A stretch of DNA of 21,322 bases from a virus (IMGVR_UViG_3300009790_000097:1-21322); one strand, 5' to 3'. Counted from the first letter of the stretch, positions 1,852 to 17,787 are shown. Numbers and translations: made by a program. The notes: generated from the sequence alone by a model not told the origin.

Positions 1852-2192
1852 TGTTCCATAACCTTTCTTGGTTGTAAAGTTTAAGGATATATATAAATCT
1901 TATGTATAATATTCCCTTATTCACTATTCTTCTGGTGTCACTAAGTAGGCGGTGAAACCTTCCAAACCCAGTTATTAACTCGATAAAAGATTGTGTAATT
2001 TAGGTGTTTTTTAAAAGAATGAGGCGAATCAACAGTTATTATTCTTGGTACATGATGTTCTTGAACTTACTGTGACCCGCCAAATCCCTAACTATTTTCT
2101 TTCCTAATTAAAAATCTTCACCACAAGTTCACTAACTATGTAGCCATTATTCACCTTGAGTGAATTTTTGCAAGTGAAAAAAATAAATAAAA
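1852..2192. other. Non-coding stretch upstream of integrase, candidate attP region
   Basis: These 341 bases contain no convincing gene on either strand. The stretch is AT-rich and carries repeated short TTCAC/GTGAA words (around 1920, 2118-2132, 2151 and 2176). One of them is a perfect inverted repeat ATTCAC-cttga-GTGAAT at 2149-2165, followed on the plus strand by five T. Such repeats next to an integrase are what arm-type integrase sites look like. The integrase overlaps its downstream neighbour, so this is the most likely place for attP. No tRNA 3' end or core repeat was recognised, so the assignment rests on position only. Confidence 0.35.
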
Positions 2193-2396
2193 TTATTGAC
2201 TCTTGTCGAGAGTCACATTGTCGAGTCCATTCAGATACCAAAGGTCTCCGACCATTTCTTTAAGAGAGTCTATTTCTGGCGAACACCAGTTTGAATTTTG
2301 ACTTTGTTTAATTGTTATCTCCAACTCAACACATAGCCATATAAGTAGTGCAATTATTAAAATTTTAGCAAAGATATTAAAAGATTTAATTACCAT
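2193..2396 (-). CDS. Small membrane protein, last gene of the leftward operon
   Basis: The 67-residue product has an N-terminal hydrophobic segment, about residues 7-24 (IFAKILIIALLIWLCVELEI), consistent with one membrane span, then a short acidic soluble tail of about 40 residues. It overlaps the end of the zinc-finger gene upstream by 11 bp, so it belongs to the recombination operon and is its last gene. The 3' end encodes an inverted repeat that could act as the operon terminator. The last codons contain an unusual cluster of GAGTC/GACTC words (2198, 2210, 2223 and 2266). Function unknown. Confidence 0.6.
   Translation of the reverse strand: MVIKSFNIFAKILIIALLIWLCVELEITIKQSQNSNWCSPEIDSLKEMVGDLWYLNGLDNVTLDKSQ
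2197..2215 (-). terminator. Possible rho-independent terminator of the leftward operon
   Basis: A perfect inverted repeat TGACTCT-tgtcg-AGAGTCA lies in the last codons of the membrane-protein gene. On the minus strand it is followed, just past the stop codon, by a run rich in T (2170-2192, mostly T with some A). The stem is 7 bp with a 5-nt loop, which is short but plausible. The same half-sites TGACTC/GAGTCA form the dyad in the promoter at 13030-13058, so the element could instead be a protein-binding or methylation site. Confidence 0.45.
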
Positions 2397-2568
2397 TTTG
2401 TACTAATTTCTTACATTCCTCTATATGATCTATCTTTTTCTGTATTCTTCTAGCATGGTTTTTTGAATAATTGGCTTTATCATAACAAGGGTTGCTACAA
2501 TATTTCTTTGTCTTTTGATGAACTGTAATATCAAATTCTTGATGACAGTAATGGCATACATTTTTCAT
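2386..2568 (-). CDS. Small zinc-finger protein (four-cysteine)
   Basis: This 60-residue basic protein has CHYCHQEF near its start and KKYCSNPCYDKA in the middle, giving a CxxC...CxxxC arrangement that should bind one zinc ion. The C-terminal half is charged and helical. The arrangement resembles small zinc-ribbon or MYM-like phage proteins of unknown role, which may bind DNA or protein partners. The ATG overlaps the stop codon of the 51-residue gene upstream as ATGA, which indicates translational coupling, and its own end overlaps the next gene by 11 bp. It is part of the ERF/exonuclease operon. Confidence 0.65.
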   Translation of the reverse strand: MKNVCHYCHQEFDITVHQKTKKYCSNPCYDKANYSKNHARRIQKKIDHIEECKKLVQNGN

Positions 2569-2720
2569 ATAGGCACACCCTCAAAATCTCTTTCTGGATG
2601 GCAAGTATAAGTTCTGAACTTGCTATGTTTGTTTAGCATTTCACATATTTGCTCACAAACTTCACGATTATCACATTCAAAAATTGTGTCTCTGTTCTTA
2701 CTTGATTCAATCCAAAACAT
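2565..2720 (-). CDS. 51-residue hypothetical protein
   Basis: A short frame starting MFWIESSKNRDT and ending DFEGVPI. It contains four cysteines (FECDNREVCEQICEML and YTCHPE), which might bind metal, though the spacing matches no known finger. It is supported by its operon position: it fills what would otherwise be the only gap in the operon. Its start overlaps the gene before it by 14 bp, and its TGA overlaps the ATG of the next gene as ATGA. Function unknown. Confidence 0.6.
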   Translation of the reverse strand: MFWIESSKNRDTIFECDNREVCEQICEMLNKHSKFRTYTCHPERDFEGVPI

Positions 2721-3072
2721 TTTCTGTCATTCCATCCATATAATCGTCATGGAACTTCCCATTAATTTCAATTTCAGAATCAATAGCAATTTTATTACCT
2801 ACTGTCTTATCCCATTCTTTTTGTATTAATCTCTTTATTACACTTTGATTGCTATGCTTGTTCTTTTGAACCTTAACAAGTATCTCAACACCCTCTATAT
2901 CCGCTTGACCATAAAGTTTTTCTGCTTTGTCTTTAAAATCTTTATTATGGAAATCAACAATCTCTTTAAGTTGTTTTACCACACCCTTTAAAGTTTCTTC
3001 CTCAAATGAGATTGATAATGATTTATGTATTATTCTCTGCTTTGAATAGTTAGTGCTATTCCCTCTACTCAT
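2707..3072 (-). CDS. Hypothetical protein of the recombination operon
   Basis: This 121-residue protein is lysine-rich and probably mixed alpha/beta. No family was recognised. The N-terminus is basic and polar (MSRGNSTNYSKQR), the middle is helical (KGVVKQLKEIVDFHNKDF), and the end is acidic (DDYMDGMTENVLD). The ATG overlaps the stop of the preceding gene as ATGA, so translation is coupled. The location in an ERF/exonuclease operon suggests a DNA-related early function, but this rests on context alone. Confidence 0.65.
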   Translation of the reverse strand: MSRGNSTNYSKQRIIHKSLSISFEEETLKGVVKQLKEIVDFHNKDFKDKAEKLYGQADIEGVEILVKVQKNKHSNQSVIKRLIQKEWDKTVGNKIAIDSEIEINGKFHDDYMDGMTENVLD

Positions 3073-3521
3073 ATAGTTTCTCCATTAATTAATTGTTCTT
3101 TATAATTACTACTTAATCTATTTTTAGAATCTAATTGTAGTTCTATCTTTCTTCCGTCTGACTTGTTGCTTAGTATATCCTTGAAGTTTTCTCGAATGTA
3201 GTTTCCTACTACTCCAACGAATCCAGATTTTCCTAGCGCTAAACATTCTTGATCGAATGAACCGCCTTTTTTAAGGTTGCGATTGAAACCTATAATTGAT
3301 TCTTCAATTAGTGTATCTAAGAAGTCGCCTCTTGAGGTACTCCCAGTCATCGGTCTTGCTGATATTTTTAACTTTCTAATTACTGGTAGGTCATCTATTA
3401 ATTCTTCTTTTAAATCCCAATAAACCATTGCGTGTACTTTATATCCGCCACCGTTAGTTGCTCTTAATAAAAGTTTGAAACCAACACCAGTCATTCTATT
3501 CGGTATTATTATTTCGTTCAT
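3069..3521 (-). CDS. Hypothetical protein with glycine-rich central motif
   Basis: This 150-residue protein has no family assignment that I can defend. Visible segments are an N-terminal beta-rich part (TGVGFKLLLRATNGGGYKVH), then ARPMTGSTSRGDF, and a segment with GKSGFVGVVGNYIREN near residue 105. It overlaps its upstream neighbour by 26 bp and couples to the downstream gene by ATGA. The start at 3521 has only a weak purine-rich sequence (AGAAGA) upstream, which fits translation by coupling inside the operon. A DNA or nucleotide metabolism role is possible from context only. Confidence 0.65.
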   Translation of the reverse strand: MNEIIIPNRMTGVGFKLLLRATNGGGYKVHAMVYWDLKEELIDDLPVIRKLKISARPMTGSTSRGDFLDTLIEESIIGFNRNLKKGGSFDQECLALGKSGFVGVVGNYIRENFKDILSNKSDGRKIELQLDSKNRLSSNYKEQLINGETI

Positions 3522-4681: not shown

Positions 4682-5682
4682 TGTTTGCCTTTCTGGTTTA
4701 ACCAAAGTTTTTTTGCGTCATCTAAATATTCTTTCTCCACACCGCGCCATTTCCAATGAGAGAAATCGGGTTGTATGATTTGGAATAAATCTCTTGGATC
4801 GTTCACTATTGATAATAAATTCTGCCGAGTAATTGCATTGACTCTTACATACTTTAAGACCTCTTTTAAATTATCCCATTGTATCTGAGGATAATCTTCA
4901 TTCTCCATAAGTACCGCCTCATCTTCATTTACATACATAACATCTAGAGGATGATTAAGTCCGAAACTGTATATTGCTATTTGAGGTAAGTTAATTGAAC
5001 GAGGCTCTAATGGAATAGATTGCTTAGTCCAGATACGATCTCCCATTTTTTTATCTCTGTAATTTTTTTTATAAAAACCTTTTGGGTTAGACCACATTGT
5101 TTTTAATTCTACTACCTTTGCAATCTTTCCGTCTTTTAAAAAAACGAAATCTGCAAAACCAATAAATAAAACTCTTAACCCTTCCATTTTAAGAACTAAA
5201 GGATATTGAGTAAGCATTGTACCGAATTGCTCTTTCAATCCGTAAAGAACATCAATTGTATGTTTTAAATAATTCTCAACAATTGTTAAATAATGTTCGA
5301 CTCTCTCTTTATCTGTTTCATCTGCACTAGAAGGCTCATATCTTTTTGCCGAGTCATAAATGTTCGATACAACTTGATCGTATGACATTTCACCATTAAC
5401 AATATATCCAGATCCTTCATCAACAAACTTGCCAAATTCCATTCTGCTATGTCTTGAAAATTTATGTCTATTTAAAGGGTTTCTAATATAACCATAATAA
5501 AACTGATCCAATTCTTGAGAGGCACTATTATTACTTAACCAGTTAATTCCCGCCCTTTGCCATTCTTCACCGATAATAAAATTGTTTTCCTTGCAATAAT
5601 CATCTACAAGTTTTTTCTGGTTAGGGTTTTTACCTGACCATACTTTTGCATCACCAATTATATTTTGTTCTCTTAATTGCAT
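4678..5682 (-). CDS. PD-(D/E)XK nuclease, likely recombination exonuclease
   Basis: The roughly 334-residue protein shows the PD-(D/E)XK nuclease core: GFADFVFLKDGK with Asp near 178, VVELKT with Glu192 and Lys194, and the later helix LPQIAIYSFGL seen in Cas4/RecB-type and phage exonucleases. It would resect DNA ends to give single strands for ERF, to which it is coupled by an ATGA overlap. It is the first gene of the leftward operon. The start is uncertain: GTG at 5688 and ATG at 5682 are in frame, and an ATG at 5690 is out of frame. No Shine-Dalgarno sequence is visible; instead a long hairpin (5695-5753) lies just upstream. Confidence 0.85.
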   Translation of the reverse strand: MQLREQNIIGDAKVWSGKNPNQKKLVDDYCKENNFIIGEEWQRAGINWLSNNSASQELDQFYYGYIRNPLNRHKFSRHSRMEFGKFVDEGSGYIVNGEMSYDQVVSNIYDSAKRYEPSSADETDKERVEHYLTIVENYLKHTIDVLYGLKEQFGTMLTQYPLVLKMEGLRVLFIGFADFVFLKDGKIAKVVELKTMWSNPKGFYKKNYRDKKMGDRIWTKQSIPLEPRSINLPQIAIYSFGLNHPLDVMYVNEDEAVLMENEDYPQIQWDNLKEVLKYVRVNAITRQNLLSIVNDPRDLFQIIQPDFSHWKWRGVEKEYLDDAKKLWLNQKGKQ

Positions 5683-5857: not shown

Positions 5858-5952
5858 CAAAAAATAGCCACAATACCTTTTATTTTATGTTTAGGTGAAT
5901 TATTAATCTAATATTTCCTAGTTTATCAACAAATAATTGTAGCCAAAATATC

Positions 5953-5981
5953 TTGTATCAAGTAGCCAAATAGTTTATAAT
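5953..5981 (+). promoter_or_regulatory. Rightward promoter TTGTAT-N17-TATAAT with operator half-sites
   Basis: A near-consensus sigma-70 promoter has TTGTAT at 5953-5958, a 17-nt spacer and TATAAT at 5976-5981. A TAGCCAA half-site lies in the spacer (5963-5969) and another just upstream of the -35 (5940-5946), 23 bp apart and thus on roughly the same face of the helix. It should drive the four small rightward genes that end at the terminator at 7086-7116 and is probably repressed by the phage repressor. Confidence 0.6.
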
Positions 5982-6353: not shown

Positions 6354-6608
6354 ATGAGTATAACATATAACAATATGACGGTTTCAAAGGTAATAACCGA
6401 AAACGAATATTACGATAGTAATAAAAAGAAACGCATAAAATATAAAAAACCTAAAATAACTAAAACAAAAATTTATGAAGGCTCACCATACTGTATTGGT
6501 GAACTATATAAAACTTTAGATTTCTTGATTGATGATAACCTTGAAGGACAAGGTTATTATGAACAAGCGGTTCTCAAGGTTGAATTAGATGTTGAGAGAA
6601 TGTACTAA
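6354..6608 (+). CDS. 84-residue basic hypothetical protein
   Basis: The protein is lysine- and tyrosine-rich in its first half (NKKKRIKYKKPKITKTKIYE) and acidic at its end (LIDDNLEGQGYYEQ and LDVERMY). No domain was recognised. The ATG has an excellent ribosome binding site, AAAAGGAG, 6 nt upstream, the best in this small operon, so it may be highly expressed. Its TAA overlaps the next ATG as TAATG, so the two are translationally coupled. Expression is probably from the promoter at 5953-5981 with repressor control. Confidence 0.65.
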   Translation: MSITYNNMTVSKVITENEYYDSNKKKRIKYKKPKITKTKIYEGSPYCIGELYKTLDFLIDDNLEGQGYYEQAVLKVELDVERMY

Positions 6609-6895
6609 TGAATAAAGATAAAGCAGAGTTATTAAGAAAAACAAGATTGTACTGCATAAACGAATTAAGAGAAGTGCAAGTAAACGAACTTCGTTTTGGT
6701 CGAATGTGGGCGGAAAGAGGCGCAATTTTTTGGAGTGAGGGCGCTGATAGTTTTGCTTATGTAAAACCAACAAAAAACATAAAAACCAAGTGGGGAACAC
6801 CTGAAGATTTATTGTGGAGTGTACCTGATAAAGACTTATGGTTTTACTACAAAAATAATCAAGAAGAAATTGATGAATGGGGTAAATATGAGTAA
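6608..6895 (+). CDS. 95-residue hypothetical protein rich in Trp
   Basis: A soluble protein with an N-terminal basic helix (KDKAELLRKTRLYCINELRE) and several Trp-containing segments (RMWAERGAIFWSEGAD and EDLLWSVPDKDLWFYYKN), ending acidic. No family recognised. It is coupled to the previous gene by TAATG and overlaps the following cysteine-rich gene by 8 bp. As part of the short operon between two repressor-controlled regions, it could be an early or lysogenic accessory protein. Confidence 0.65.
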   Translation: MNKDKAELLRKTRLYCINELREVQVNELRFGRMWAERGAIFWSEGADSFAYVKPTKNIKTKWGTPEDLLWSVPDKDLWFYYKNNQEEIDEWGKYE

Positions 6896-7097: not shown

Positions 7098-7116
7098 ATA
7101 AATAGTGTCTTTTTTT
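7086..7116 (+). terminator. Rho-independent terminator between convergent genes
   Basis: AAAAGGCACTA (7086-7096) pairs with TAGTGTCTTTT (7103-7113), with one G-U pair and the 6-nt loop AATAAA, and is followed by a run of seven T (7110-7116). It ends the rightward small-gene operon. The A-rich left arm gives T residues on the opposite strand, so it probably also stops the leftward repressor transcript. Confidence 0.85.
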
Positions 7117-7759
7117 ATTTTGGAATATCTTTAAGTATCTCGCCTTTTTCGTTTATCCAATCCCAATCCCAATCAATCCTTGCTACTGGAATTACATACT
7201 CCCAATCTGCTTTCTTAATCTTTTTATTATCCCAATCAACAGAGGGGTCATATCTTCTAAATTTTCCGTCAAAGGATTTATTTACAAAACCCAATGCTCC
7301 GTTTTTATGTTTTACCATATACATTCCATAGTTATTATCTGGTATTGATTTTGTTTTTGCATTTTTTTCTAATAACCAGACGGATGATCCTTGAGGATCG
7401 TAAAGACAGATTAGATTTTTAACATCAGATATGAAATGATCTAAACGAATATATCTAGGTGTTGTGTATATGGGGTCATTTAACTCTACTTCTGGTGCTT
7501 TCTTCTCACCTACAAATTGATTAATCTCTCCATGAACTTGAACAATCATTTCAATTGGCTCATACAATTCAAACCATGAACGATTAATTATTTTACCGAT
7601 CTTCCTAGCAGTTTCTACATCTAGCTTTCTGTTGTTATTTACTATCTTGTTAAAGTTAATCCTAGACTGACCAATCTGTTTTGCCATATCGGTCTGTGAT
7701 ATATTATAACTATCCAAGATAACTTTAAGATAATTGGCATTATCTGATAACTTAACCAT
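7115..7759 (-). CDS. CI-like repressor with N-terminal HTH and degenerate LexA-like C-terminus
   Basis: This 214-residue protein should be the lysogeny repressor. Residues 10-65 form a HTH_3/XRE domain: SYNISQTDMAKQIGQSRINF followed by IVNNNRKLDVETARKIGKII. After a linker, VQVHGEINQFVG resembles the entry to the S24/LexA peptidase fold. I do not see the usual catalytic Ser in a GxSM context nor its Lys partner, so RecA-stimulated self-cleavage is doubtful. The gene is transcribed divergently from the Cro-like gene, with a strong ribosome binding site (AAGGAAGGAG). Half-sites in both intergenic regions are its likely operators, including one at its own transcription start. Confidence 0.85.
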   Translation of the reverse strand: MVKLSDNANYLKVILDSYNISQTDMAKQIGQSRINFNKIVNNNRKLDVETARKIGKIINRSWFELYEPIEMIVQVHGEINQFVGEKKAPEVELNDPIYTTPRYIRLDHFISDVKNLICLYDPQGSSVWLLEKNAKTKSIPDNNYGMYMVKHKNGALGFVNKSFDGKFRRYDPSVDWDNKKIKKADWEYVIPVARIDWDWDWINEKGEILKDIPK

Positions 7760-7799
7760 TATGTTTACATTCTCCTTCCTTTATTAACATTCTGGCTAC

Positions 7800-7827
7800 A
7801 TTATACATACATTCACAATTATCACAA
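7800..7827 (-). promoter_or_regulatory. Repressor promoter (pRM-like)
   Basis: On the minus strand TTGTGA (7827-7822) is separated by 16 nt from TATAAT (7805-7800). A second TTGTGA lies inside the spacer. The half-site TAGCCAG (7798-7792) follows the -10 immediately and covers the expected transcription start, suggesting autoregulation. The leader to the repressor ATG at 7759 is about 35 nt and includes a good ribosome binding site. Confidence 0.6.
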
Positions 7828-7870
7828 TAGTTTTCTAAGGTATCTATTTTATATACTATGTTCTTTTTTG

Positions 7871-7904
7871 TTTGCTAGTAGCCAAGAATAAGGTATATAG
7901 CAAA
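7871..7904 (+). promoter_or_regulatory. Cro operon promoter with overlapping dyad operator (pR-like)
   Basis: TTTGCT (7871-7876) and TATATA (7894-7899) are 17 nt apart. The sequence TTTGCTA-g-TAGCCAA (7871-7885) is a nearly perfect 7-1-7 dyad covering the -35, and a further TAGCAAA half-site (7898-7904) lies at the -10, 19 bp from the previous TAGCCAA. Binding there would block transcription. The -10 ends only 6 nt before the ATG of the Cro-like gene, so the transcript would be nearly leaderless. Confidence 0.55.
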
Positions 7905-7905
7905 T

Positions 7906-8133
7906 ATGAAATTACAAAAGTATCGAGAAGAAAACAATCTAACATTACAAAAATTGGCTAATTTACTGGGTATTGAGGGTACTAATCCTAGAAGGACAAC
8001 TAATAGATATTGTCTAGGATTAAGGAAACCTAATCCTGAAATTATGGGTAAAATAGAAATTTTAACCGAAGGAAAGGTACAATCTAAAGATTTTACCGAA
8101 CACTACAAGGCAGTACATGGTCAAGGTAAATAA
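7906..8133 (+). CDS. Cro-like HTH regulator
   Basis: A 75-residue DNA-binding protein with an HTH: residues 5-22 (KYREENNLTLQKLANLLGI) look like helices 1-2 of the XRE/HTH_3 fold, and NRYCLGLRKPNPEIMGKIEI contains the loop and final helices. Position, size and divergence from the repressor fit a Cro-type lytic switch protein; a CII-type activator is a less likely alternative. There is no good Shine-Dalgarno sequence (only AAGG 12 nt upstream), and the probable -10 box is right next to the ATG, so a leaderless mRNA is likely. The next gene overlaps its end by 17 bp. Confidence 0.75.
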   Translation: MKLQKYREENNLTLQKLANLLGIEGTNPRRTTNRYCLGLRKPNPEIMGKIEILTEGKVQSKDFTEHYKAVHGQGK

Positions 8134-8470
8134 AACACCCTTACCAAAGGTTGTAGATATTTCCTACCACACAATAGCCTTCAAATTGTTAGATCAGCAA
8201 GTTGCCTTAGAGGTTGGGGATCAGCAAGGTAGTTATGTTGCAAGAGATCAGGTTATATTCCTAGATGAGTCAATTATAGAGCAAGGTGGAGCAAGAGCAG
8301 TATCTCTTGTCCTTCACGAAATTGGTCATGCTATTTATTATATCTACAATTTAAAAGACCGAGAAGAAGAACCAACAGTAGATAGTTTTGCAAATGCCTA
8401 TACCGAAGTTTTCAGACGCAATAAACAATTAACAAAATGGATGGTTGAGAACTTAAATGGCACAATTTGA
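8117..8470 (+). CDS. HExxH metallopeptidase, ImmA/IrrE (M78)-like
   Basis: The 117-residue protein contains the zinc-metallopeptidase motif HEIGH (His67, Glu68, His71) in VSLVLHEIGHAIYYIY, followed by an acidic segment EEEPTVDSFANAYTEVFRRN that could provide the third ligand (a Glu/Asp around 83-89) and resembles the EExxAxxFA region of the ImmA/IrrE family. ImmA of ICEBs1 cleaves the resident repressor to start induction; IrrE cleaves DdrO. Encoded directly after the Cro-like gene (17-bp overlap), it is a candidate antirepressor protease. It is shorter than many M78 proteins, and other small HExxH families cannot be excluded. Confidence 0.7.
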   Translation: MVKVNKTPLPKVVDISYHTIAFKLLDQQVALEVGDQQGSYVARDQVIFLDESIIEQGGARAVSLVLHEIGHAIYYIYNLKDREEEPTVDSFANAYTEVFRRNKQLTKWMVENLNGTI

Positions 8471-8900
8471 AGAAAGTTTATTAGTTGGTCGTGAGGTAGA
8501 ACACCTTGTACTAGAACAGATCCAAACAAAATATCCTAGCGCGGTATTAATTAAAAATAAATTTTCAGAGTACGACATTTTCATTCCAGAGAACGATAAG
8601 AAGATAGAGGTTAAATTAGATAAGAAAAGTCAATTTACTGGGAACTTAGTTGTCGAGTTATACATGTATGGAAAACCAAGTGGACTACTTAGAACACAAG
8701 CAGACTACTGGTACTGGGAAACTGGAAATAATTTGTTGTGTATTAGACCAATAAAAATAATTGAATGTTTACTCATGAATAGTGTTCCTAGCAGAACATT
8801 TATCGGCAACGGAGATACAGTTGAAAAGACCGCATGTTTAGTAAAGATTGAAACAATTAAACCTTACTGTGAATCAATAAGCGCGAGTTTATTTAACTAA
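8457..8900 (+). CDS. Small PD-(D/E)XK-type nuclease
   Basis: This 147-residue protein has the core of a restriction-like or resolvase-like nuclease: EYDIFIPENDKKIEVKLDKK, where Asp40, Glu51 and Lys53 form the D...ExK triad, then TGNLVVELYMYGKPSGLLRT and ADYWYW, a pattern I know from phage endonucleases of this fold. Likely roles are Holliday-junction or branched-DNA cleavage during replication, or host DNA cutting. It overlaps the metallopeptidase gene by 14 bp, and its TAA overlaps the methyltransferase ATG (TAATG), so nuclease and methyltransferase are made together. Confidence 0.75.
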   Translation: MAQFEESLLVGREVEHLVLEQIQTKYPSAVLIKNKFSEYDIFIPENDKKIEVKLDKKSQFTGNLVVELYMYGKPSGLLRTQADYWYWETGNNLLCIRPIKIIECLLMNSVPSRTFIGNGDTVEKTACLVKIETIKPYCESISASLFN

Positions 8901-9499
8901 TGGGTAGAATCTATGATATAGAAACTGGTACTGAACTACATAATGTAGAACCCCTACCTATTCAAAAGAAATATGATATATTGTATGTTGATCCGCCTTA
9001 CAAATTTAGAACTTACGATAAAAAAGATGTAGTGCCTTATCCAACTATGACTGATGAGGAATTGTATGCCTTGCCAGTAGAACAGATTGGAAAACCAAAT
9101 AGTGCGATGTTTATGTGGGTCACGAACCCTAAATTAATAACTGGCATTAATCTAATGGCAAGTTGGGGGTATAGATATAAAACAGTCGCATTTTGTTGGG
9201 TAAAGAAGAATAAAAAAGCAGATAGTTTCTTTTTCGGACAAGGATATTACACCAGACAAAATATCGAGTGCTTATTGCTTGGAACTAGAGGTAAACCCCT
9301 TAAAAGAGAATCTAAAGCAGTAAGTCAGATCATCTATGAACCCATAAGGGAACATAGCAGAAAACCAGACATAGTAAGGGATAAGATAGTCGAATTATTT
9401 GGCGATATACCTCGTATAGAACTGTTTAGCCGAGAAGATGTTGAAGGTTGGGATTCATGGGGTTTTGATAAAGGAATGTTTAATGAAAAAAAAGACTGA
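8900..9499 (+). CDS. MT-A70-family DNA N6-adenine methyltransferase
   Basis: The 199-residue enzyme would transfer a methyl group from S-adenosylmethionine to adenine N6 in DNA. The catalytic DPPY motif is at residues 31-34 in YDILYVDPPYKF, preceding the typical MT-A70 run MFMWVTNPKL, SWGYRYKTVAFCWVKK, and GYYTRQNIECLLLGTRGKPL. REHSRKPDIVRDKIVELFG and IELFSRE complete the cofactor site. The length is standard for phage members. Target specificity cannot be read from sequence. It is coupled to the nuclease upstream and overlaps the replication gene downstream by 17 bp. The possible link to the GANTC-rich operon is discussed in the findings. Confidence 0.92.
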   Translation: MGRIYDIETGTELHNVEPLPIQKKYDILYVDPPYKFRTYDKKDVVPYPTMTDEELYALPVEQIGKPNSAMFMWVTNPKLITGINLMASWGYRYKTVAFCWVKKNKKADSFFFGQGYYTRQNIECLLLGTRGKPLKRESKAVSQIIYEPIREHSRKPDIVRDKIVELFGDIPRIELFSREDVEGWDSWGFDKGMFNEKKD

Positions 9500-9914
9500 A
9501 TACACAATTGACGAGTTGCTGAACCCCACAAAGCATTTCGTAAAAGTTTCGCAAGGGATCTTTCAATTAAATATGAGTAGCCATGCCAAGATATTATTCA
9601 TGGTACTTATCGGCTTTAGAAACAACAATTCTAGCGGAGTGCATCCGTCATTATCTTACCTTGCAAAACAAATTAATGTGAAATGTAGAAAATCGGTGAT
9701 GAGGTGTCTAAAGGAGTTAAGAGAACTCGGACTGATCGAATGGGAGCAATTAGCACACAATGGCGCGAACCATTATTACTTTGATAGCAGTAATATTGTG
9801 AGGTTAAGAAAGAAAAGAACGATGGGTAAAAAGACCCAACGCAGTAGGGTGAAATCGCCCACCTATAAAGATATAAAACTATTAAGAAATAATATTATAG
9901 AATTTAAAAAATGA
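9483..9914 (+). CDS. HTH replication initiator-like protein
   Basis: The 143-residue product begins MKKKTEYTIDELL; a longer frame upstream exists, but AAGGA 7 nt before this ATG decides the start. Residues about 35-85 form a winged HTH of the HTH_36/replication-O N-terminal type: SSHAKILFMVLIGFRN, GVHPSLSYLAKQINV, and SVMRCLKELRELGLIEWEQ. The C-terminus is a basic tail (RLRKKRTMGKKTQRSRVK). This is the part of lambda O-like proteins that binds origin iterons. No helicase-loader or helicase domain follows, so it would have to recruit host proteins. It is the best candidate to bind the 22-bp iterons 770 bp downstream. Confidence 0.75.
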   Translation: MKKKTEYTIDELLNPTKHFVKVSQGIFQLNMSSHAKILFMVLIGFRNNNSSGVHPSLSYLAKQINVKCRKSVMRCLKELRELGLIEWEQLAHNGANHYYFDSSNIVRLRKKRTMGKKTQRSRVKSPTYKDIKLLRNNIIEFKK

Positions 9915-10162
9915 ACTTAATAGATAACCTTCTCAAAGATTATAAACCGCCTACTGAAAAGCAGAGGAAGGCTAATAAGTTAAAAGAATTACAATATATT
10001 GTTAAACAGATGTCTAAAAGGAGCAATTTCGCTTACCAAAGCGCAATTGAGAGAAATAAAAAGAACAATGACTATAAACAGTACCTTCTAAGAGCAAAAG
10101 CAGAATTAAACCCCACAAAACAACATGAGATTATTGTTAATTACCTAAAAGAGAAAGGATAA
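9911..10162 (+). CDS. Basic hypothetical protein of the replication operon
   Basis: This 83-residue, highly basic and helical protein (KQRKANKLKELQYIVKQMSK) overlaps the initiator gene as ATGA and is followed 1 bp later by the HTH gene. No family recognised. Its place directly after an O-like initiator is where a helicase loader often lies, but it is much too short for a DnaC- or P-type loader and has no Walker motif. An accessory factor for replication is the most that context suggests. Confidence 0.6.
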   Translation: MNLIDNLLKDYKPPTEKQRKANKLKELQYIVKQMSKRSNFAYQSAIERNKKNNDYKQYLLRAKAELNPTKQHEIIVNYLKEKG

Positions 10163-10163
10163 T

Positions 10164-10586
10164 ATGATAGAAATAGGTGATCTTATGGATCTTTACGATG
10201 ATTTCTATAAAACAGATAAACGACTACCACCTATTGTGCCAAAATCATTAAAGGGAAATATAATGAAATGGGAGTTTCCAGAAGAATTTTCAGATAAAGT
10301 GAATACATGGAAGAATAAAAAGCAAACTTACATAGCACCAACAAAAGAAGATATTGATAGATACTGGGTAGCAACAGAACTAGCATTAACCCTTAATGAT
10401 TATGATAGAGGACTACTGTATGACCGACACAGAGGCAATTCGTACCGAAGATTAGCAAAACTATACGGAGTATCGAGAGAGACGATTAGAGTCGCTTATC
10501 TTGGCATATTATTGGATTTGCAGTTGAGGATTAACAAACTAGCAAAAGGTAGTATCAAACATTACATTTATTTAAAAAAGAATTGA
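10164..10586 (+). CDS. Sigma-like HTH protein (DUF6362-like), possible late regulator
   Basis: The 140-residue product has a polar N-terminal region and a C-terminal HTH that resembles sigma-70 region 4: VATELALTLNDYDRGLLYDR, then NSYRRLAKLYGVSRETIRVAYLGIL. DUF6362 proteins with this fold sit before the packaging genes in many alphaproteobacterial phages and are often likened to late-gene regulators. It closes the immunity-replication operon and directly precedes the putative origin. It may activate the downstream promoters, which is inference. The ribosome binding site GAGAAAGG lies 5-10 nt before the ATG. Confidence 0.65.
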   Translation: MIEIGDLMDLYDDFYKTDKRLPPIVPKSLKGNIMKWEFPEEFSDKVNTWKNKKQTYIAPTKEDIDRYWVATELALTLNDYDRGLLYDRHRGNSYRRLAKLYGVSRETIRVAYLGILLDLQLRINKLAKGSIKHYIYLKKN

Positions 10587-10597
10587 CAAAACACACA

Positions 10598-10619
10598 ATA
10601 TATAGTTGTTTCTATATAT
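10598..10619. other. AT-rich dyad beside the iterons, candidate unwinding element
   Basis: ATATATAG (10598-10605) and CTATATAT (10612-10619) form a perfect 8-bp inverted repeat around TTGTTT, inside an almost pure A/T stretch. AT-rich segments next to iterons commonly act as the first melted region of an origin. A terminator for the preceding operon is less likely because no T run follows. Confidence 0.4.
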
Positions 10620-10681
10620 AATTAGGCAACATGTATGCTTAATCGAAACATCTTCAAAACAAATCAATAACTTGCCAAAAC

Positions 10682-10783
10682 CATTCTACCGAATGACATG
10701 ATTCGTTCTACCGAATACGCGATTTCGTTCTACCGAATACTAAAAATCATTCTACCGAATGGAAAAAATCATTCTACCGAATA
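10682..10783 (+). repeat. Five 22-bp-spaced iterons, putative replication origin
   Basis: Five copies of YRTTCTACCGAAT occur with the TTCTACC core starting at 10684, 10706, 10728, 10750 and 10772, exactly 22 bp apart each time. Copies 1 and 4 are CATTCTACCGAATG, copies 2 and 3 GTTCTACCGAATAC, and copy 5 CATTCTACCGAATA. The ATTC/GAAT ends give each copy partial dyad symmetry. The 22-bp step is about two helical turns, so all copies face the same side of the DNA. The array follows the initiator operon and an AT-rich dyad. This is the classic layout of an iteron origin; an operator array for a regulator is the alternative. Confidence 0.8.
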
Positions 10784-10795
10784 GGAAAAAAAACT

Positions 10796-10945
10796 ATGGA
10801 ATTTCTAACAAAAATTAAAGAAAAAATACTTGATATTTATTATCAAGAATTTGAATACTTAGATAAAAAAGAAAAGATAAAACGCGCTATAATCTCAATA
10901 ATTGGAATAGTTATAGTTATTTCAATTATTACTAGCATAGCTTAA
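10796..10945 (+). CDS. 49-residue single-span membrane protein
   Basis: The frame starts 12 nt after the last iteron. It encodes a charged N-terminal half (LTKIKEKILDIYYQEF, then YLDKKEKIKR) and a C-terminal hydrophobic helix (AIISIIGIVIVISIITSIA) ending at the stop, so it looks like a tail-anchored membrane protein. AGGA lies about 9 nt upstream of the ATG. No family recognised. Its place beside the putative origin raises the possibility that it tethers replication to the membrane, but only position suggests this. Confidence 0.55.
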   Translation: MEFLTKIKEKILDIYYQEFEYLDKKEKIKRAIISIIGIVIVISIITSIA

Positions 10946-10973
10946 TATTGGTATCATTTATATAATATCAATA
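10946..10973 (+). terminator. Weak AT-rich hairpin after the membrane-protein gene
   Basis: TATTGGTAT (10946-10954) pairs with ATATCAATA (10965-10973) with one G-U pair and a 10-nt loop, then CTTTTAAT. It begins directly after the stop codon, where a terminator would be expected before the next promoter, but the stem is AT-rich and the T run is short, so efficiency is doubtful. Confidence 0.35.
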
Positions 10974-10997
10974 CTTTTAATAAAATGTTTCTAAATA

Positions 10998-11027
10998 GTT
11001 TACACATGTAAACATTTTCTATATAAT
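10998..11027 (+). promoter_or_regulatory. Strong promoter with a 7-2-7 dyad over the -35
   Basis: TTTACA (10999-11004) and TATAAT (11022-11027) are separated by exactly 17 nt. The -35 lies in the dyad GTTTACA-ca-TGTAAAC (10998-11013), flanked by a wider repeat AAAATGTTT (10982-10990) and AAACATTTT (11011-11019), so a dimeric regulator probably binds here. The expected start falls in GACTC (11030-11034). It would drive the GAGTC-rich operon at 11065-12922. Confidence 0.65.
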
Positions 11028-11064
11028 ACGACTCAACATTAAACAACTTAAAAGGAGTCGTAAA

Positions 11065-11193
11065 ATGGAAGAATATCAAGATAACATCACACTAGATTCA
11101 AAATTTGATATTGATTCAAGTTTTGATTATTTAACTGAGATTTTAAACGATAGAAGTAATCAAGAGTCAATGGAGTCTGATTATGATAGTTAA
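11065..11193 (+). CDS. 42-residue acidic protein
   Basis: First gene of the GAGTC-rich operon. The product is very acidic and Ser-rich (MEEYQDNITLDSKFDIDSSF and SNQESMESDYDS). AAAAGGAG lies 7 nt before the ATG. Small acidic early phage proteins often mimic DNA or bind host polymerase or nucleases, but no family was recognised. Its 3' end contains GAGTC twice (11164 and 11173), both as GAG-TCN Glu-Ser codons, and the second also serves as ribosome binding site of the next gene, which overlaps by 11 bp. Confidence 0.55.
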   Translation: MEEYQDNITLDSKFDIDSSFDYLTEILNDRSNQESMESDYDS

Positions 11194-11548
11194 TTCTCAG
11201 ATAGATAATGAGATTTTAAAAGATTCAATCTTTTTCACTCAATTACTAGAAAAAGAAATTATAGAAAAGCATAAAGCAAAGGAAAAAGACAATCAAGACT
11301 CTATCATGGCGCGATCTATGATAGATAGAGCCTTAACCAATGTTCCAAGAAAATTTTGTGTTAATTCAGGTACTATTGTTAAATATAGAATTAATGTCTT
11401 ACAAGAAAATTTAAGGCATTATTTAACTTTACATGAAAAATGCAATCAGGCTAGGCATATTGTCAATTACTGTAAGCATTTAATGACTCATGGAGTTAGA
11501 AACTACTACAAGGCTAAAAAATTATATGGAGTCTCTTATGTCTCTTAG
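11183..11548 (+). CDS. 121-residue hypothetical protein, His/Cys-containing C-terminus
   Basis: A mainly helical protein (FFTQLLEKEIIEKHKAKEKD, then NVLQENLRHYLTLHEKCNQA) whose C-terminal half carries several His and Cys (LHEKCNQARHIVNYCKHLMTHG), compatible with metal binding but not matching a named finger. The ATG is inside the end of the preceding gene, with GGAG 8 nt upstream. It overlaps the next membrane-protein gene by 11 bp. Function unknown; it belongs to a compact early operon. Confidence 0.6.
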   Translation: MIVNSQIDNEILKDSIFFTQLLEKEIIEKHKAKEKDNQDSIMARSMIDRALTNVPRKFCVNSGTIVKYRINVLQENLRHYLTLHEKCNQARHIVNYCKHLMTHGVRNYYKAKKLYGVSYVS

Positions 11549-11693
11549 TTTTTTAGCATTTATGGTTGTTATATTAATTGTTTGTTTGGTTATGCTTTTA
11601 ATTAACCTAGCATACAAATATGACTACCTAAACGAACAATACTACATTGTTAAAAAGGAACTTGAGAAACAAAGGAGTCTATATAATGGATGA
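11538..11693 (+). CDS. 51-residue membrane protein
   Basis: The product starts with a long hydrophobic helix (LSFLAFMVVILIVCLVMLLI), followed by a short charged region (YKYDYLNEQYYIVKKELEKQ), so it is probably an N-in, single-span protein with a cytoplasmic or periplasmic helical tail. A longer frame begins at 11490 but would lie inside the preceding gene; the start at 11538 has GGAG 6 nt upstream (part of GGAGTC) and is preferred. Function unknown; holin-like or superinfection-exclusion roles are possible for such proteins. Confidence 0.6.
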   Translation: MSLSFLAFMVVILIVCLVMLLINLAYKYDYLNEQYYIVKKELEKQRSLYNG

Positions 11694-11955
11694 TAAATTC
11701 AAGACAGTTGCTCAAATATCTCAAGTATTCGATTTAATGAGTAAACACTCAGAGTCTAATCAGACTCCCAAAGTTAAGGAAGAAATGGCGCATAAAAGAC
11801 TAGATCAAAGATTAAGATTTTATTTAGTAAGTGATAATGGATTCATAAAACCTGATGACTGGGAGTCTCTTAGTGTTAATGAAAAGGAAAAAAGATTAAA
11901 TAGATTAGATAAAATTAATCTTTTTTTAGATTCAAAGTTTCCTAAGAGTCAATAA
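11686..11955 (+). CDS. 89-residue hypothetical protein
   Basis: A polar, helical protein (MDDKFKTVAQISQVFDLMSK and DDWESLSVNEKEKRLNRLDK) with no recognised domain. The chosen ATG has AAAGGAG 9 nt upstream and overlaps the previous gene by 8 bp; an alternative start at 11647 would overlap much further. It ends in TAATG shared with the next gene. The coding sequence carries five RGAGTC-type or GACTC words, several as GAG-TCT Glu-Ser codons. Confidence 0.6.
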   Translation: MDDKFKTVAQISQVFDLMSKHSESNQTPKVKEEMAHKRLDQRLRFYLVSDNGFIKPDDWESLSVNEKEKRLNRLDKINLFLDSKFPKSQ

Positions 11956-12221
11956 TGAATAGTGAATTGAATACAGTATATAGGAAGGCTTGTAGATTTA
12001 TTAATACTGGTAAATGGTTGCAATTTGAGGGTTCAACTGGAAGATTTTACAACGATAATTTCATAGAGTCTAGAATACTAAAACCAACTAAATTTAGAAC
12101 TCAATATATAGACGGATATAATAGACTGTTAAACATGCCTATTTTTAAGGTTGATAGAAACAGAGTCGAAGAATTAACAATGAATGATCCTGATTTTATA
12201 GAGTTTTTAGAAGATCAATAA
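11955..12221 (+). CDS. 88-residue hypothetical protein
   Basis: A small, mildly basic protein, aromatic-rich in the middle (FINTGKWLQFEGSTGRFYND and KFRTQYIDGYNRLL), with an acidic end (DPDFIEFLEDQ). No family recognised. It is translationally coupled to the previous gene by TAATG, which supports that both are real. GAGTC occurs at 12066 (GAG-TCT, Glu-Ser) and 12163 (AGA-GTC-GAA). Function unknown. Confidence 0.6.
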   Translation: MNSELNTVYRKACRFINTGKWLQFEGSTGRFYNDNFIESRILKPTKFRTQYIDGYNRLLNMPIFKVDRNRVEELTMNDPDFIEFLEDQ

Positions 12222-12253
12222 CAAATAAATAATTGAAAGTAAGGAGTCAATTT

Positions 12254-12922
12254 ATGAATAAAGAAATAATAAATAATACCGATGTATCAAGAAAACCATT
12301 TAATAAGGCTCAAATTGAGTGGTGGACTAATAGAATCGATAATTTAACCAGAGAAAAAAGAAGATCTTTAGAGTCTGAGTTTGAAAGTCATATTCAAGCA
12401 GAGTCTAAAAAGAATATGGATAAGTTTATTAATACTTTAAAAATCAACAAAGAATTAGAGTCTTATAAAAATGCTTATTCAAAGTATGAAAAAACTATAA
12501 ACAAAAGCGTTGATTTACAATTTAAACAAAAAGCGGAGCTAAGAAAATTAGAAGAAAAACACAAAGAAGAAGAACATAAATTAAATCAGATAAAAGAAAA
12601 AGAGGGAGAAGGATTAAAAAAGGCACGAACTGAACTTACTCAGGTTTTAGAGAACTGGGAAAAAATAAGAGGATGGCAAGTATATTTCAATTATGATAAT
12701 CCTAGTGAAGTAAATGCAACTTTGACTAATTGTTGTTATGAAGAAACTAAAAAGGCTTTTTATAAATCAAAGGCAGGAAAAGAACTAAAACAGATAGACG
12801 ATGTAAGATTAAATATATTAGATAACATTTACTCTAATAATCTAGATCAGAATATATTGTCCGTAATTGGTGTTAATCTTGCAAGTATTGGCATTAATAC
12901 GCAATTACAACTAACAAACTAA
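12254..12922 (+). CDS. 222-residue coiled-coil protein
   Basis: The largest product of this operon. Residues about 25-125 are a long, highly charged coiled coil (for example KQKAELRKLEEKHKEEEHKL), and the C-terminal third is a small folded-looking region with CC (TLTNCCYEETKKAFYKSKAG). No enzymatic motif is visible. AAGGAG lies 7 nt before the ATG at 12254; a TTG further upstream is less likely. Phage coiled-coil proteins may act as structural, inhibitory or DNA-organising factors, so no function is assigned. A rho-independent terminator follows 25 bp after the stop. Confidence 0.65.
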   Translation: MNKEIINNTDVSRKPFNKAQIEWWTNRIDNLTREKRRSLESEFESHIQAESKKNMDKFINTLKINKELESYKNAYSKYEKTINKSVDLQFKQKAELRKLEEKHKEEEHKLNQIKEKEGEGLKKARTELTQVLENWEKIRGWQVYFNYDNPSEVNATLTNCCYEETKKAFYKSKAGKELKQIDDVRLNILDNIYSNNLDQNILSVIGVNLASIGINTQLQLTN

Positions 12923-12946
12923 CATAAAAAAGAACTAATAAAACAT

Positions 12947-12981
12947 AGAGAGATGACTCTTTTCAGGGTTGTCTCTCTTTT
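12947..12981 (+). terminator. Rho-independent terminator of the GAGTC-rich operon
   Basis: AGAGAGATGAC (12947-12957) pairs with GTTGTCTCTCT (12968-12978), eleven positions with two G-U pairs and a 10-nt loop, followed by TTTTAATTTC. It lies 25 bp after the last stop codon of the operon and separates it from the late promoter at 13030. Confidence 0.8.
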
Positions 12982-13029
12982 AATTTCAATAACTTAATTA
13001 ATATTCTATCCGAGTCTGGCGCGTAAAAG

Positions 13030-13058
13030 TTGACCTGACTCACGAGTCAAAATGTAAT
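13030..13058 (+). promoter_or_regulatory. Late-module promoter with GANTC dyad in the spacer
   Basis: TTGACC (13030-13035) and TGTAAT (13053-13058) are 17 nt apart. The spacer begins with the perfect dyad TGACTC-ac-GAGTCA (13036-13049), so two GANTC sites lie between -35 and -10. It is the only good promoter between the terminator at 12947-12981 and the head genes, so it probably drives packaging and capsid genes. The dyad could be an operator or a methylation-sensitive switch. Confidence 0.6.
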
Positions 13059-13092
13059 CTTCACTAGATACTTAGTTAATTAATTACAATTA

Positions 13093-13239
13093 ATGTTGAA
13101 AAACAAACAAAAAGAATATTATTCACAGAAATTTACTATATTTTTGGCGGGTTTTACCGAGAGGACAAGGGCAAAATCTTCTCGGCTTACCAGAGTTCCA
13201 GATAGGTACTTCATACGCACAAAAGAGAGGGTCTTATGA
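13093..13239 (+). CDS. Possible 48-residue basic protein at the head of the late operon
   Basis: An open frame starting MLKNKQKEYYSQKF and ending RTKERVL, strongly basic. It begins about 28 nt after the expected start of the late transcript, and its TGA overlaps the ATG of the next gene as ATGA, which favours it being real. Against it, no Shine-Dalgarno sequence precedes the ATG and it contains the inverted repeat at 13157-13185. If it is not translated, 12923-13235 is a 313-base untranslated region holding the terminator, promoter and hairpin listed separately. Confidence 0.35.
   Translation: MLKNKQKEYYSQKFTIFLAGFTERTRAKSSRLTRVPDRYFIRTKERVL
13157..13185 (+). other. Hairpin upstream of the packaging genes
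   Basis: CCGAGAGG (13157-13164) pairs with CTTCTCGG (13178-13185), one G-U pair, 13-nt loop. It has no T run, so it is not a terminator. It lies 440 bp before the large terminase in a locally GC-richer patch (GGCGGGTTTTACC just before). It could be a packaging-site element or an RNA structure in the late leader. Confidence 0.35.
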
Positions 13240-13430
13240 CGACAGACGACAACTATGGTTTCAGAGTTTCAGTAGATGACGCAAAAGATGTTGTCTTATT
13301 GGAAATAGAGGGGTTTGATACAGACATTGAAAGGCAAGAGTTTGCCGATCTTTTATTCAACACCCTAAAATTTGATAAATTATATCTTATGAAACTTTTA
13401 AGTAGCAGAGATAAATCAACATTACATTAA
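13236..13430 (+). CDS. 64-residue acidic hypothetical protein before terminase
   Basis: The protein is acidic and probably mixed alpha/beta (DNYGFRVSVDDAKDVVLLEI followed by TDIERQEFADLLFNTL). No family recognised. GAGAGG lies 5-10 nt before the ATG, a good ribosome binding site. It stands at the start of the late operon, followed 14 bp later by the repeat protein gene. A role in packaging or head assembly is suggested only by position. Confidence 0.6.
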   Translation: MTTDDNYGFRVSVDDAKDVVLLEIEGFDTDIERQEFADLLFNTLKFDKLYLMKLLSSRDKSTLH

Positions 13431-13444
13431 TAAAAGGATAAATT

Positions 13445-13618
13445 ATGGCAGATAACATATATGTAGGCGCACAGATGACTGAAAAAGAGTTGCAGAGACT
13501 CCAGAAACTTATGACTGGCGCACAAGTATCAGAAAAAGAAAAGAAAAGAATTATGCAAAAGATTAAAGGATTAACTGGCGCACAATTTACTGAAAAAGAA
13601 AAAAACAGACTTAAATAA
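13445..13618 (+). CDS. 57-residue protein made of three GAQ-xEKE repeats
   Basis: The protein is three copies of a 17-20-residue unit: VGAQMTEKELQRLQKLM, TGAQVSEKEKKRIMQKIKGL and TGAQFTEKEKNRLK. At the DNA level, each begins GGCGCACA (13466, 13517 and 13577). Each unit should be a short helix with a GAQ cap, so the whole may be a three-helix bundle or extended adaptor. AAAGGA lies about 7 nt before the ATG. It ends 6 bp before the large terminase. A DNA-binding or terminase-accessory role is conceivable, but the family is unknown to me. Confidence 0.65.
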   Translation: MADNIYVGAQMTEKELQRLQKLMTGAQVSEKEKKRIMQKIKGLTGAQFTEKEKNRLK

Positions 13619-13624
13619 CTTACT

Positions 13625-14914
13625 ATGCCCACAGTTGTAATTCCGTATAAACCGCGTGAAGTACAAAAGCATTTACATAAACAAATAGACAAGCATCGGT
13701 TCAGTGTAATCGTGGCACATCGGAGACTAGGCAAATCTCTGATGACAATAATGCACTTAATTAAGGATGCTTTAAGGACAAAGAAAAAAAATTATAGGGG
13801 GGTTTATATAGCACCAACTATAACGATGGCTAAGTCTGTTGCATGGGATTATGTAAAAACTTTTACTGAAAAGTTGCCTGATACTAATTATAACGAGGCA
13901 GAACTCCGTGTTGATTTCCCTAATGGGTCTAGACTTCAATTAGTTGGCGCAAATGATGGCGGACAAAAGCTAAGAGGTCGTTATTTTGATAGTTGTGTGA
14001 TGGATGAGACACAAATGTTATCATCTGATCTCTTTAACCAGATTATTAGACCCGCATTAGTGGATAGGAATGGTTTGGCAGGGGAACATACTTGGTGCGT
14101 GTTCATTGGAACACCACAATTACAGAATTACTTTTACCAGATTTACGAGTACGCAAAGAAAACTGAGGGATGGTATAATGTTGTTTTACCAGTTAGTGAG
14201 ACTAAAGTTGTACCTAAAGATGAATTAGAACAAGCAAGAAAGATCATGGGGGAAGATGCCTATGAGCAAGAGTTTGAATGTTCATTCAATGCTAATATTA
14301 GTGGTTCTTATTACGGAAAATTGATGCAGAAGGCATTTGAAGAAGGAAGGATTGGCAAAGTTGAGGAAGATGTTGATTTAGAAACCGAAGTTTACCTCGA
14401 TTTAGGCATGAATGATAATACTGCAATGTGGTTTGTGCAAAGGCATAAGCATGAATACCGATTTATTGACTATGAGGAGTTCAACGGAGAGGGTTTGCAG
14501 TTCCTAGCCGACTTTTTGGAACGAAAAGGTTATGTATATTCAAGAATTATCGTTCCGCATGACATTAGAGTTAAAGAATTAGGTACTGGGGTCTCTAGAT
14601 TTGAAATATTATCTGGTTTGGGGGTTGGCAACATCGAAATTGCACCCAAATTACCTTTGAACGATGGTATTGAGGCAGTCAGGCATAATTTTGATAATTT
14701 TTGGTTTGATGAAACCAATTGTGCAATGGGAATACAACATTTAAAGGCATATACGAAAGTATTTGATTCAAGACACCGAATTTACAGAAACAGACCTAAA
14801 CACGATAACGCATCACATTCGGCAGATGCTTTGAGGTATGGAATGGTTATGGGCGGTGCAACAATAACAAATTGGGAAAAACCCTTAGAATTAGAAAATA
14901 GAGGAATAGTTTAG
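13625..14914 (+). CDS. terL: Terminase large subunit
   Basis: The 429-residue ATPase-nuclease translocates phage DNA into the procapsid and cuts it. The ATPase domain has Walker A AHRRLGKS (31-38), Walker B VMDE (125-128) with the catalytic Glu, and the coupling motif FIGTP (160-164). The RNase H-like nuclease domain has Asp259 in YLDLGMND, a PHD at 311-313 and the C-terminal HSADALRYG with Asp401. The length is typical. It lacks a clear Shine-Dalgarno sequence and may depend on coupling to the small gene 6 bp upstream. Its TAG overlaps the GTG start of the portal gene. Confidence 0.95.
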   Translation: MPTVVIPYKPREVQKHLHKQIDKHRFSVIVAHRRLGKSLMTIMHLIKDALRTKKKNYRGVYIAPTITMAKSVAWDYVKTFTEKLPDTNYNEAELRVDFPNGSRLQLVGANDGGQKLRGRYFDSCVMDETQMLSSDLFNQIIRPALVDRNGLAGEHTWCVFIGTPQLQNYFYQIYEYAKKTEGWYNVVLPVSETKVVPKDELEQARKIMGEDAYEQEFECSFNANISGSYYGKLMQKAFEEGRIGKVEEDVDLETEVYLDLGMNDNTAMWFVQRHKHEYRFIDYEEFNGEGLQFLADFLERKGYVYSRIIVPHDIRVKELGTGVSRFEILSGLGVGNIEIAPKLPLNDGIEAVRHNFDNFWFDETNCAMGIQHLKAYTKVFDSRHRIYRNRPKHDNASHSADALRYGMVMGGATITNWEKPLELENRGIV

Positions 14915-17391: not shown

Positions 17392-17787
17392 ATGGCAAAA
17401 AAGAGTAAACAATTAATAGAATCTATTTTAAGTGAACTAATAAAAGCTAAGACGATAAAACAAGTTTTAAAAGAACATGACTTGAGTTTTCAATCTTGGA
17501 ATAATTGGCTCATTAAAGACCCAGAATTGATGAATAGGTATCATCAAACTAAATTGTCAGCGCTAGACTTAGAGTTGTCCGATTTAGAAGATGAATTAAC
17601 AAAAGCAATTAATGAATCGCGTGAAAAAGGGAAGAAGGACATGTCGTTTATTAATGCGATCAAGTTAAAGATGACCCACATACATTGGAAGTTATCAAGA
17701 CTTGATCCTAAGAAGTATAGTAATAACACAAACATATTACATAAAGGGGATTCAAACGAACCTTTGGTGATTAAATTTTTGGATTAA
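17392..17787 (+). CDS. terS: Terminase small subunit-like protein, Sf6 gp1 type
   Basis: The 131-residue protein follows the known Sf6-type pattern: an N-terminal HTH (LIESILSELIKAKTIKQVLK and EHDLSFQSWNNWLIKDPELM), a helical oligomerisation part (RYHQTKLSALDLELSDLEDE) and the typical ending HIHWKLSRLDPKKYSN, plus a short acidic tail. It would recognise the packaging site and load the large subunit. Unlike most phages, the gene is not next to terL but after the portal and a membrane protein. The ATG at 17392 has no strong ribosome binding site; another ATG in the previous gene's stop region is out of frame. Confidence 0.72.
   Translation: MAKKSKQLIESILSELIKAKTIKQVLKEHDLSFQSWNNWLIKDPELMNRYHQTKLSALDLELSDLEDELTKAINESREKGKKDMSFINAIKLKMTHIHWKLSRLDPKKYSNNTNILHKGDSNEPLVIKFLD

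Follow-up and report, generated by a model that had tools for sequence, protein, structure and literature searches.

Clustering of the word GASTC over an accessory operon and the predicted promoters at either end in a marine phage contig

We examined a 21.3-kb virus contig with a GC content of 33% (hereafter the window, meaning the whole stretch of 21,322 nucleotides) and found that the words GAGTC and GACTC, together GASTC, are concentrated in one short accessory operon, where 16 GAGTC and 6 GACTC lie between positions 11,030 and 13,048. The excess is independent of codon usage, involves both orientations of the word, does not extend to GANTC in general, recurs with different genes at the same site in related phages and is restricted to that locus. 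We give about an even chance to the interpretation that this homotypic cluster, which extends across the operon and its flanking promoters, is read by a protein that binds or methylates GASTC specifically. Whereas the search for phage control sites usually centers on promoters, here a regulatory or epigenetic word apparently extends through coding sequence, to a degree that would bend codon choice and perhaps even the choice of amino acids, and it remains at the locus when the genes differ.

The window encodes an integrase-like protein (411-1679, minus strand), a CI-like repressor (7115-7759, minus strand), a Cro-like protein, a replication-initiation-like protein and an MT-A70 methylase (8900-9499). 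The final conserved gene upstream of the insert (10,164-10,586, plus strand) encodes a helix-turn-helix protein, similar to sigma region 4, that matches DUF6362 (Pfam PF19889, with an E of 1e-5 that falls short of the curated threshold), and the packaging and head genes lie downstream of the operon. The large terminase (TerL) shares 45% identity with its counterpart in Pelagibacter phage HTVC106P, and it is by TerL only that the phage would be called Pelagibacter-like. Profile searches with TerL and DUF6362 detected no prophage of this phage family among 84,980 genomes. Related loci with the same region were collected through their terminase homologs, and most of these relatives are fragments. 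The small-terminase-like gene (17,392-17,787 in the window) is found behind the portal gene in the window and L003, and directly past the insertion site in L009, L011, L119 and G024.

The operon is of the moron type: it has its own predicted promoter and terminator, is missing from G024, a close relative of the array-bearing G014, and has different genes in its place in L008, L009 and L119. Its promoter, predicted from a consensus match (TTTACA-17 bp-TATAAT; 10,999-11,027, plus strand), is followed at once by ACGACTC, a layout also seen in L003 and L007. The leader contains the inverted repeat ACGACTC...GGAGTCGT (11,028-11,061, plus strand; predicted RNA fold -9.2 kcal/mol, z -3.5) and reads TAATACGACTCA, a 12-base match to the T7-type promoter TAATACGACTCACTATAGGG, with no CTATAGGG downstream. 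Six genes follow on the plus strand. The ribosome-binding site is GGAGTC in gene 1 (11,065-11,193; 42 aa, acidic), gene 2 (11,183-11,548; 121 aa, with homologs in L003 and L007), gene 3 (11,538-11,693; 51 aa, with a membrane segment predicted by inspection) and gene 4 (11,686-11,955; 89 aa), while gene 5 (11,955-12,221; 88 aa) has AAGAGTC at that position and gene 6 (12,254-12,922; 222 aa, coiled-coil-like) contains three GAG-TCT words. For the third gene, 11,538 is the most likely start, since GGAGTC lies just before it, and this corrects an earlier assignment to 11,490. Family searches of the operon proteins matched only families of unknown function, and no known RNA family was found within 10,500-13,650.

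Past gene 6, a predicted intrinsic terminator carries GACTC in its stem (12,947-12,981, plus strand; -18.3 kcal/mol, z -5.8), and upstream of the packaging genes there is a promoter-like element (13,030-13,058, plus strand) composed of TTGACC, 17 bp holding GACTCACGAGTC, and TGTAAT, which reads TTGACC-T-GACTC-AC-GAGTC-AAAA-TGTAAT. A TTGACC(A)GACTCA(C/T)GA-like form of this element occurs in all array phages and is degenerate in most array-less relatives. Strict coupling of its word to the array can be rejected, since several array-less relatives retain TTGACC and some have one or two GASTC words. The words occupy similar places in both promoter regions. An initial reading of this DNA from the sequence alone (the sequence-only reading) had placed the word in ribosome-binding sites and in both flanking promoters, and this proved accurate, as GAGTC occupies the ribosome-binding-site position in all six genes and GASTC lies by the -10 box of the operon promoter as well as in the downstream promoter-like element.

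The window contains 42 GAGTC/GACTC words compared with 22.6 +/- 4.6 in dinucleotide shuffles, none of 100 of which reached 42. Our recount of the operon region gave the same 22 words and the same roughly tenfold excess that had been reported from the sequence alone (about 2 would be expected from the rest of the window); the other 20 words are distributed over the remaining 19.3 kb, so that density is about 10 per kb in the array and about 1 per kb elsewhere. When all 5-mers were scanned in 1.5-kb windows, as the sequence-only reading had suggested, GAGTC/GACTC formed the strongest cluster (18 vs. 1.9; p about 1e-11.7, compared with 1e-5.9 for the runner-up word). Raw clusters of other words that are equally strong, including several of low complexity or with the look of repeats, exist elsewhere among 197 phage loci, and we therefore consider a codon-preserving test to be the decisive one.

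For this test the proteins and their codons were kept and synonymous codons were redistributed. The six window genes contain 12 GAGTC compared with 2.8 after shuffling (maximum 8 in 2,000 shuffles), and 8 compared with 2.3 when the ribosome-binding-site copies were masked; with masking and both orientations summed, none of 2,000 shuffles reached the observed count. Thus codons do not explain the excess, and the original observation withstands the shuffle that had been named as a way to overturn it. The preference for GAG-TCN in Glu-Ser pairs was also reproduced. The nine pairs in the operon are encoded by seven GAG-TCT, one GAG-TCA and one GAA-AGT, which gives GAG-TCN in 8 of 9 compared with 3 of 11 in ten other window genes, and the GAA:GAG ratio within the operon is 36:18. 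Since the shuffle holds the protein fixed while Glu-Ser dipeptides are themselves over-represented in the window operon (9 vs. 3.8, p 0.007), the test is if anything conservative.

Related phages have the word as well. L003 and L007 carry it together with homologs of some of the window operon genes, and L008 and the pair L009/L119 carry it with non-homologous genes at the same site. These five operons were pooled with that of the window, although the six phages are not all independent because the window, L003 and L007 share operon genes. With ribosome-binding sites masked, the codon-preserving shuffle gave 35 GASTC compared with 10.7 expected (z 8.6), the most enriched of 488 words (next word z 5.6). 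In control genes from the same phages, GAGTC/GACTC counts were 9 vs. 6.1 and 6 vs. 6.6, with no excess when combined. Taken singly, the word inside genes gave p <0.0005 in the window, 0.013 in L003, 0.001 in L007, 0.0005 in L008 and 0.0065 in L009; in L119 the value was 0.24, and the word is found mainly at its ribosome-binding sites. The last operon gene of a further relative, L002, is 84% identical to gene 6, yet all three coding words are gone; the ribosome-binding-site word is retained, as are those of the terminator and the downstream element. The coding words of the last gene are therefore not conserved between homologs and the sites turn over, which would be expected of words selected as a set. 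The proposal that relatives might keep the word at different codon positions is thus borne out, and extends to other genes. Survival of the codon shuffle and this recurrence support the conclusion, already drawn from the sequence alone, that selection acts on nucleic acid and not on protein.

Comparison of these regions indicates that the word belongs to the locus, given that non-homologous genes there carry it and relatives without the insert have no array. Both insert and array are absent from G024, L011 and L013. G024 is otherwise close to the array-bearing G014, with many proteins 80-95% identical, and has only about 0.2 kb, without an array, between the DUF6362 gene and the small-terminase-like gene. 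One L119 operon gene with a GGAGTC ribosome-binding site has a window homolog at 6608-6895 with no GASTC around it, and distant homologs of the 222-aa protein in Baldr-type pelagiphages are surrounded by DNA without any GASTC, L233 being the exception.

The 16:6 strand bias of the array had been taken to allow a signal at the RNA level. In such a scheme GAGUC in ribosome-binding sites and early mRNA would serve as the target of a phage translational repressor or a RegB-like endoribonuclease, or would pair with GACUC in the leader. We consider such a signal unlikely, though several observations are in keeping with it. By inspection, GAGTC is at the ribosome-binding site of about 20 of the 29 genes in the six operons, and the excess is stronger at these sites than in the coding parts, as an RNA model would predict. 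The leader repeat is able to pair with the first ribosome-binding site in the window, L003 (RNA fold -6.7) and L007 (-8.4), and coding regions fold slightly better than codon shuffles. However, selection for a word in RNA should enrich just one of its two senses, and in the masked coding sequence of the six operons GAGTC (23 vs. 6.6) and GACTC (12 vs. 4.1; maximum 10 in 2,000 shuffles) are both about threefold enriched. Since both orientations are alike in this respect, reading as double-stranded DNA is favored over RNA. Words are also found past the terminator, in the promoter-like element, and immediately beside the operon's predicted -10 box, and the leader GACTC is absent from L009 and L119. 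While the 16:6 count is correct, it is largely due to ribosome-binding sites, which can carry GGAGTC only, and to codon supply; the ratio of 23:12 in masked sequence, compared with 6.6:4.1 expected, leaves little bias. In the fold models, a local RNA role of the leader hairpin with the first ribosome-binding site could still apply in the three phages. T4 RegB, which cleaves RNA at the GGAG of early ribosome-binding sites and in one orientation, resembles the present case in that a GAG-containing word lies in ribosome-binding sites of early genes, but differs in that here both orientations are enriched in coding DNA.

A second alternative is restriction-related pressure, in which a GAGTC-specific nuclease or restriction-modification system acts and the cluster is a decoy or an import from a word-rich genome. 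Baldr-type pelagiphages are entirely without GASTC (0 vs. about 53 expected; in the Baldr genome alone 0 vs. 9.7, with GAWTC near expectation), and the insert is accessory DNA. However, such pressure should deplete the word, not concentrate it; elsewhere in the window there is no depletion, and unrelated inserts show the same excess, so we regard this explanation as quite improbable.

The MlyI/PleI restriction-modification systems share the word and its orientation-free specificity (the endonuclease recognizes GAGTC and the MlyI methylase GASTC; PMC4081073), and in the array it is likewise symmetric GASTC, and not GAWTC, that is enriched, but no such enzyme was found in the window and restriction predicts avoidance where the array shows local excess. 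Methylation signals at GANTC, GASTC and GAGTC have been reported in marine Alphaproteobacteria (PMC9516812), and together with the absence of GASTC from Baldr-type phages they suggest that a GASTC-specific activity plausibly exists in this environment. To the question why methylation words are so sharply avoided by marine phages, or as here concentrated, the array adds one particular word.

The sequence-only reading had favored a region whose methylation is sensed at GANTC, the CcrM site; in the form considered here, methylation by CcrM of an alphaproteobacterial host would be sensed at the array, with control of the GcrA type. GASTC is a subset of GANTC, words lie in both flanking promoter regions, and in Pelagibacter GANTC is methylated and its density splits pelagiphages (PMC9516812), so that the overlapping word, its promoter-adjacent sites and its presence in likely hosts all recall CcrM/GcrA. 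However, neither GAATC (6 vs. 12.4) nor GATTC (17 vs. 14.2) is enriched over the six operons, and the word is therefore GASTC and not the CcrM word GANTC. The extended GcrA site, YGAKTCK, shows no concentration in the array, whose region contains 3 of its 13 window matches, and ten phage records of the family yielded no CcrM-type methylase (PF01555). We rejected the GANTC form on the lack of GAWTC enrichment and of clustered GcrA sites, and accord it little probability; a narrower form of the methylation idea survives, since GASTC is the specificity of the MlyI methylase.

It has a similarly small probability that the common GGAGTC word of ribosome-binding sites is a junction at which accessory genes are exchanged by recombination at cassette boundaries. 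Variable genes with one stereotyped ribosome-binding site are indeed found at one site, and L145 has a similar operon with a different stereotyped word, GGAGAACC, but the synonymous excess in two orientations inside genes and the words in promoters and terminators would be left unexplained. Chance, codon composition or repeated protein motifs, for which the equally strong raw clusters in other, partly low-complexity or repeat-like phage loci might speak, are very improbable, since five of six operons individually survive the codon-preserving shuffles, GASTC is first of 488 words combined and control genes show no excess, so that this explanation is refuted, provided that the replication in five phages does not simply reflect common ancestry.

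Under the preferred interpretation, a GASTC-specific protein reading the cluster, the array would be a set of short double-stranded DNA sites distributed over a moron-type operon, in a phage with genes for an integrase and a CI-like repressor, and reaching into the operon's own promoter and the promoter-like element downstream. The words would sit where they are cheapest: in ribosome-binding sites, where GGAG needs only TC, in Glu-Ser codons, in terminator stems and in promoter spacers. The reader would take GASTC either way round and pick out the block by its density, and would then act on the operon and the neighboring promoter as a single unit. It might be a regulator that binds the DNA, or a methylase that shares the GASTC specificity of MlyI and is combined with a methylation-sensitive reader. 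We infer the protein reader, regulation or marking as its purpose, and any direction in which expression would change. In a more general form, which we offer tentatively and with the balance somewhat against it, phages would mark cargo by a dense, gene-independent GASTC code written into the ribosome-binding sites and synonymous codons of whichever accessory genes are present there, and the whole block would be switched or silenced by a methylase or binding protein specific for GASTC. Should a reader of GASTC exist, it would account for the way in which phage cargo is brought under control after its acquisition, and word statistics would become a means of finding such systems.

No candidate reader was found solely in array-bearing phages. 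MT-A70 is the only methylase family recognized in the window and, like DUF6362, is present in array-less relatives too, and we rejected DUF6362 as the reader on this ground. A fold model of DUF6362 gave sigma region 4-like and weak Q21-like matches without significance in fold searches; its gene lies before those for packaging, which would be fitting for a late regulator. The CI repressor was also set aside as an improbable reader, as no GASTC lies in the CI-cro control region and TAGCCA motifs look likelier as the early operator. Nor do the words resemble typical operator arrays: apart from the G of the ribosome-binding site there is no flanking information beyond the 5 bp, and we found no consistent spacing or helical phasing (about 10.5 bp).

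Among known phage systems, elements controlled through Dam and GATC, such as Mu mom and P1 pac, contain a few GATC sites grouped within a short control region. They are similar in that clusters of a methylation word lie near accessory or packaging functions, but the GASTC array has about 20 sites across coding sequence. Another such system is that of the stoperators of cluster A mycobacteriophages (L5 repressor), which are 13-bp asymmetric, orientation-dependent sites numbering more than 20 per genome (PMC9283540). They too are many short sites in promoters and between genes, through which one protein is thought to control a block of genes, as proposed for the array. In contrast, the GASTC words are 5 bp, nearly palindromic, present in both orientations and confined to about 2 kb, many lie within genes while the CI control region has none, and they show neither the long asymmetric consensus nor the transcription-tied orientation of the L5 type.

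A possible second GASTC array is present in L020, an unrelated phage contig (GC 46%) selected as the top case among about 95 loci that a leader pattern had retrieved; coding GASTC is 9 vs. 2.4 in its cluster with no excess elsewhere, and several GGAGTC ribosome-binding sites lie within 7600-10,100 of the reverse complement. On this basis unrelated phages may use the same code. Within the window but outside the main array, four GASTC words lie in about 70 bp (2198-2270) where a gene transcribed leftward (2193-2396) has its 3' end.

Several words are missing or nearly missing from some of the phages examined. GASTC and CTNAG are both missing from Baldr-type pelagiphages (L241, the whole Baldr genome; L225-L232; L234-L239), CTAAG/CTTAG from HTVC010P (L243; 0 vs. 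76) and CGAG from HTVC106P (L242; 0 vs. 44). GATC is nearly missing from one clade (L009-L015, L118-L129, G009, G011, G014 and G024), with 1 seen in all and 0 in the four longest records where 117, 100, 87 and 37 are expected; in the clade of the window (the window and L002-L008) GATC counts are normal.

Upstream of the operon, five direct repeats of about TTCTACCGAAT at 22-bp steps (10,684-10,782, plus strand) are possible iterons or operators, and they provide the sole hint of the adjacent origin that the sequence-only reading had supposed. Similar repeats lie between the DUF6362 gene and the operon in L003 (about 4710-4810) and L007 (about 963-1080), and a lone copy is found near 5725 in the window. 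TAGCCA/TGGCTA motifs, a candidate CI/Cro operator, occur near early promoters in the window (5940-5970, 7793 and 7879) and in L007 (1326), L009 (469), L119 (5464) and L123 (5979-5995); the array-operon promoters of L007, L009 and L119 are among these sites. In L145, the small-gene operon at 980-3400 has GGAGAACC as the ribosome-binding-site word of most genes, and one gene is homologous to a gene of the L009 GAGTC operon. Finally, a single accessory-like gene starting with GGAGTCGAATATG is found in L123 (about 6030) and in L129 (about 500 bp before TerL), in both between a 64-aa-type ORF and TerL, and its promoter region in L123 holds TAGCCA.
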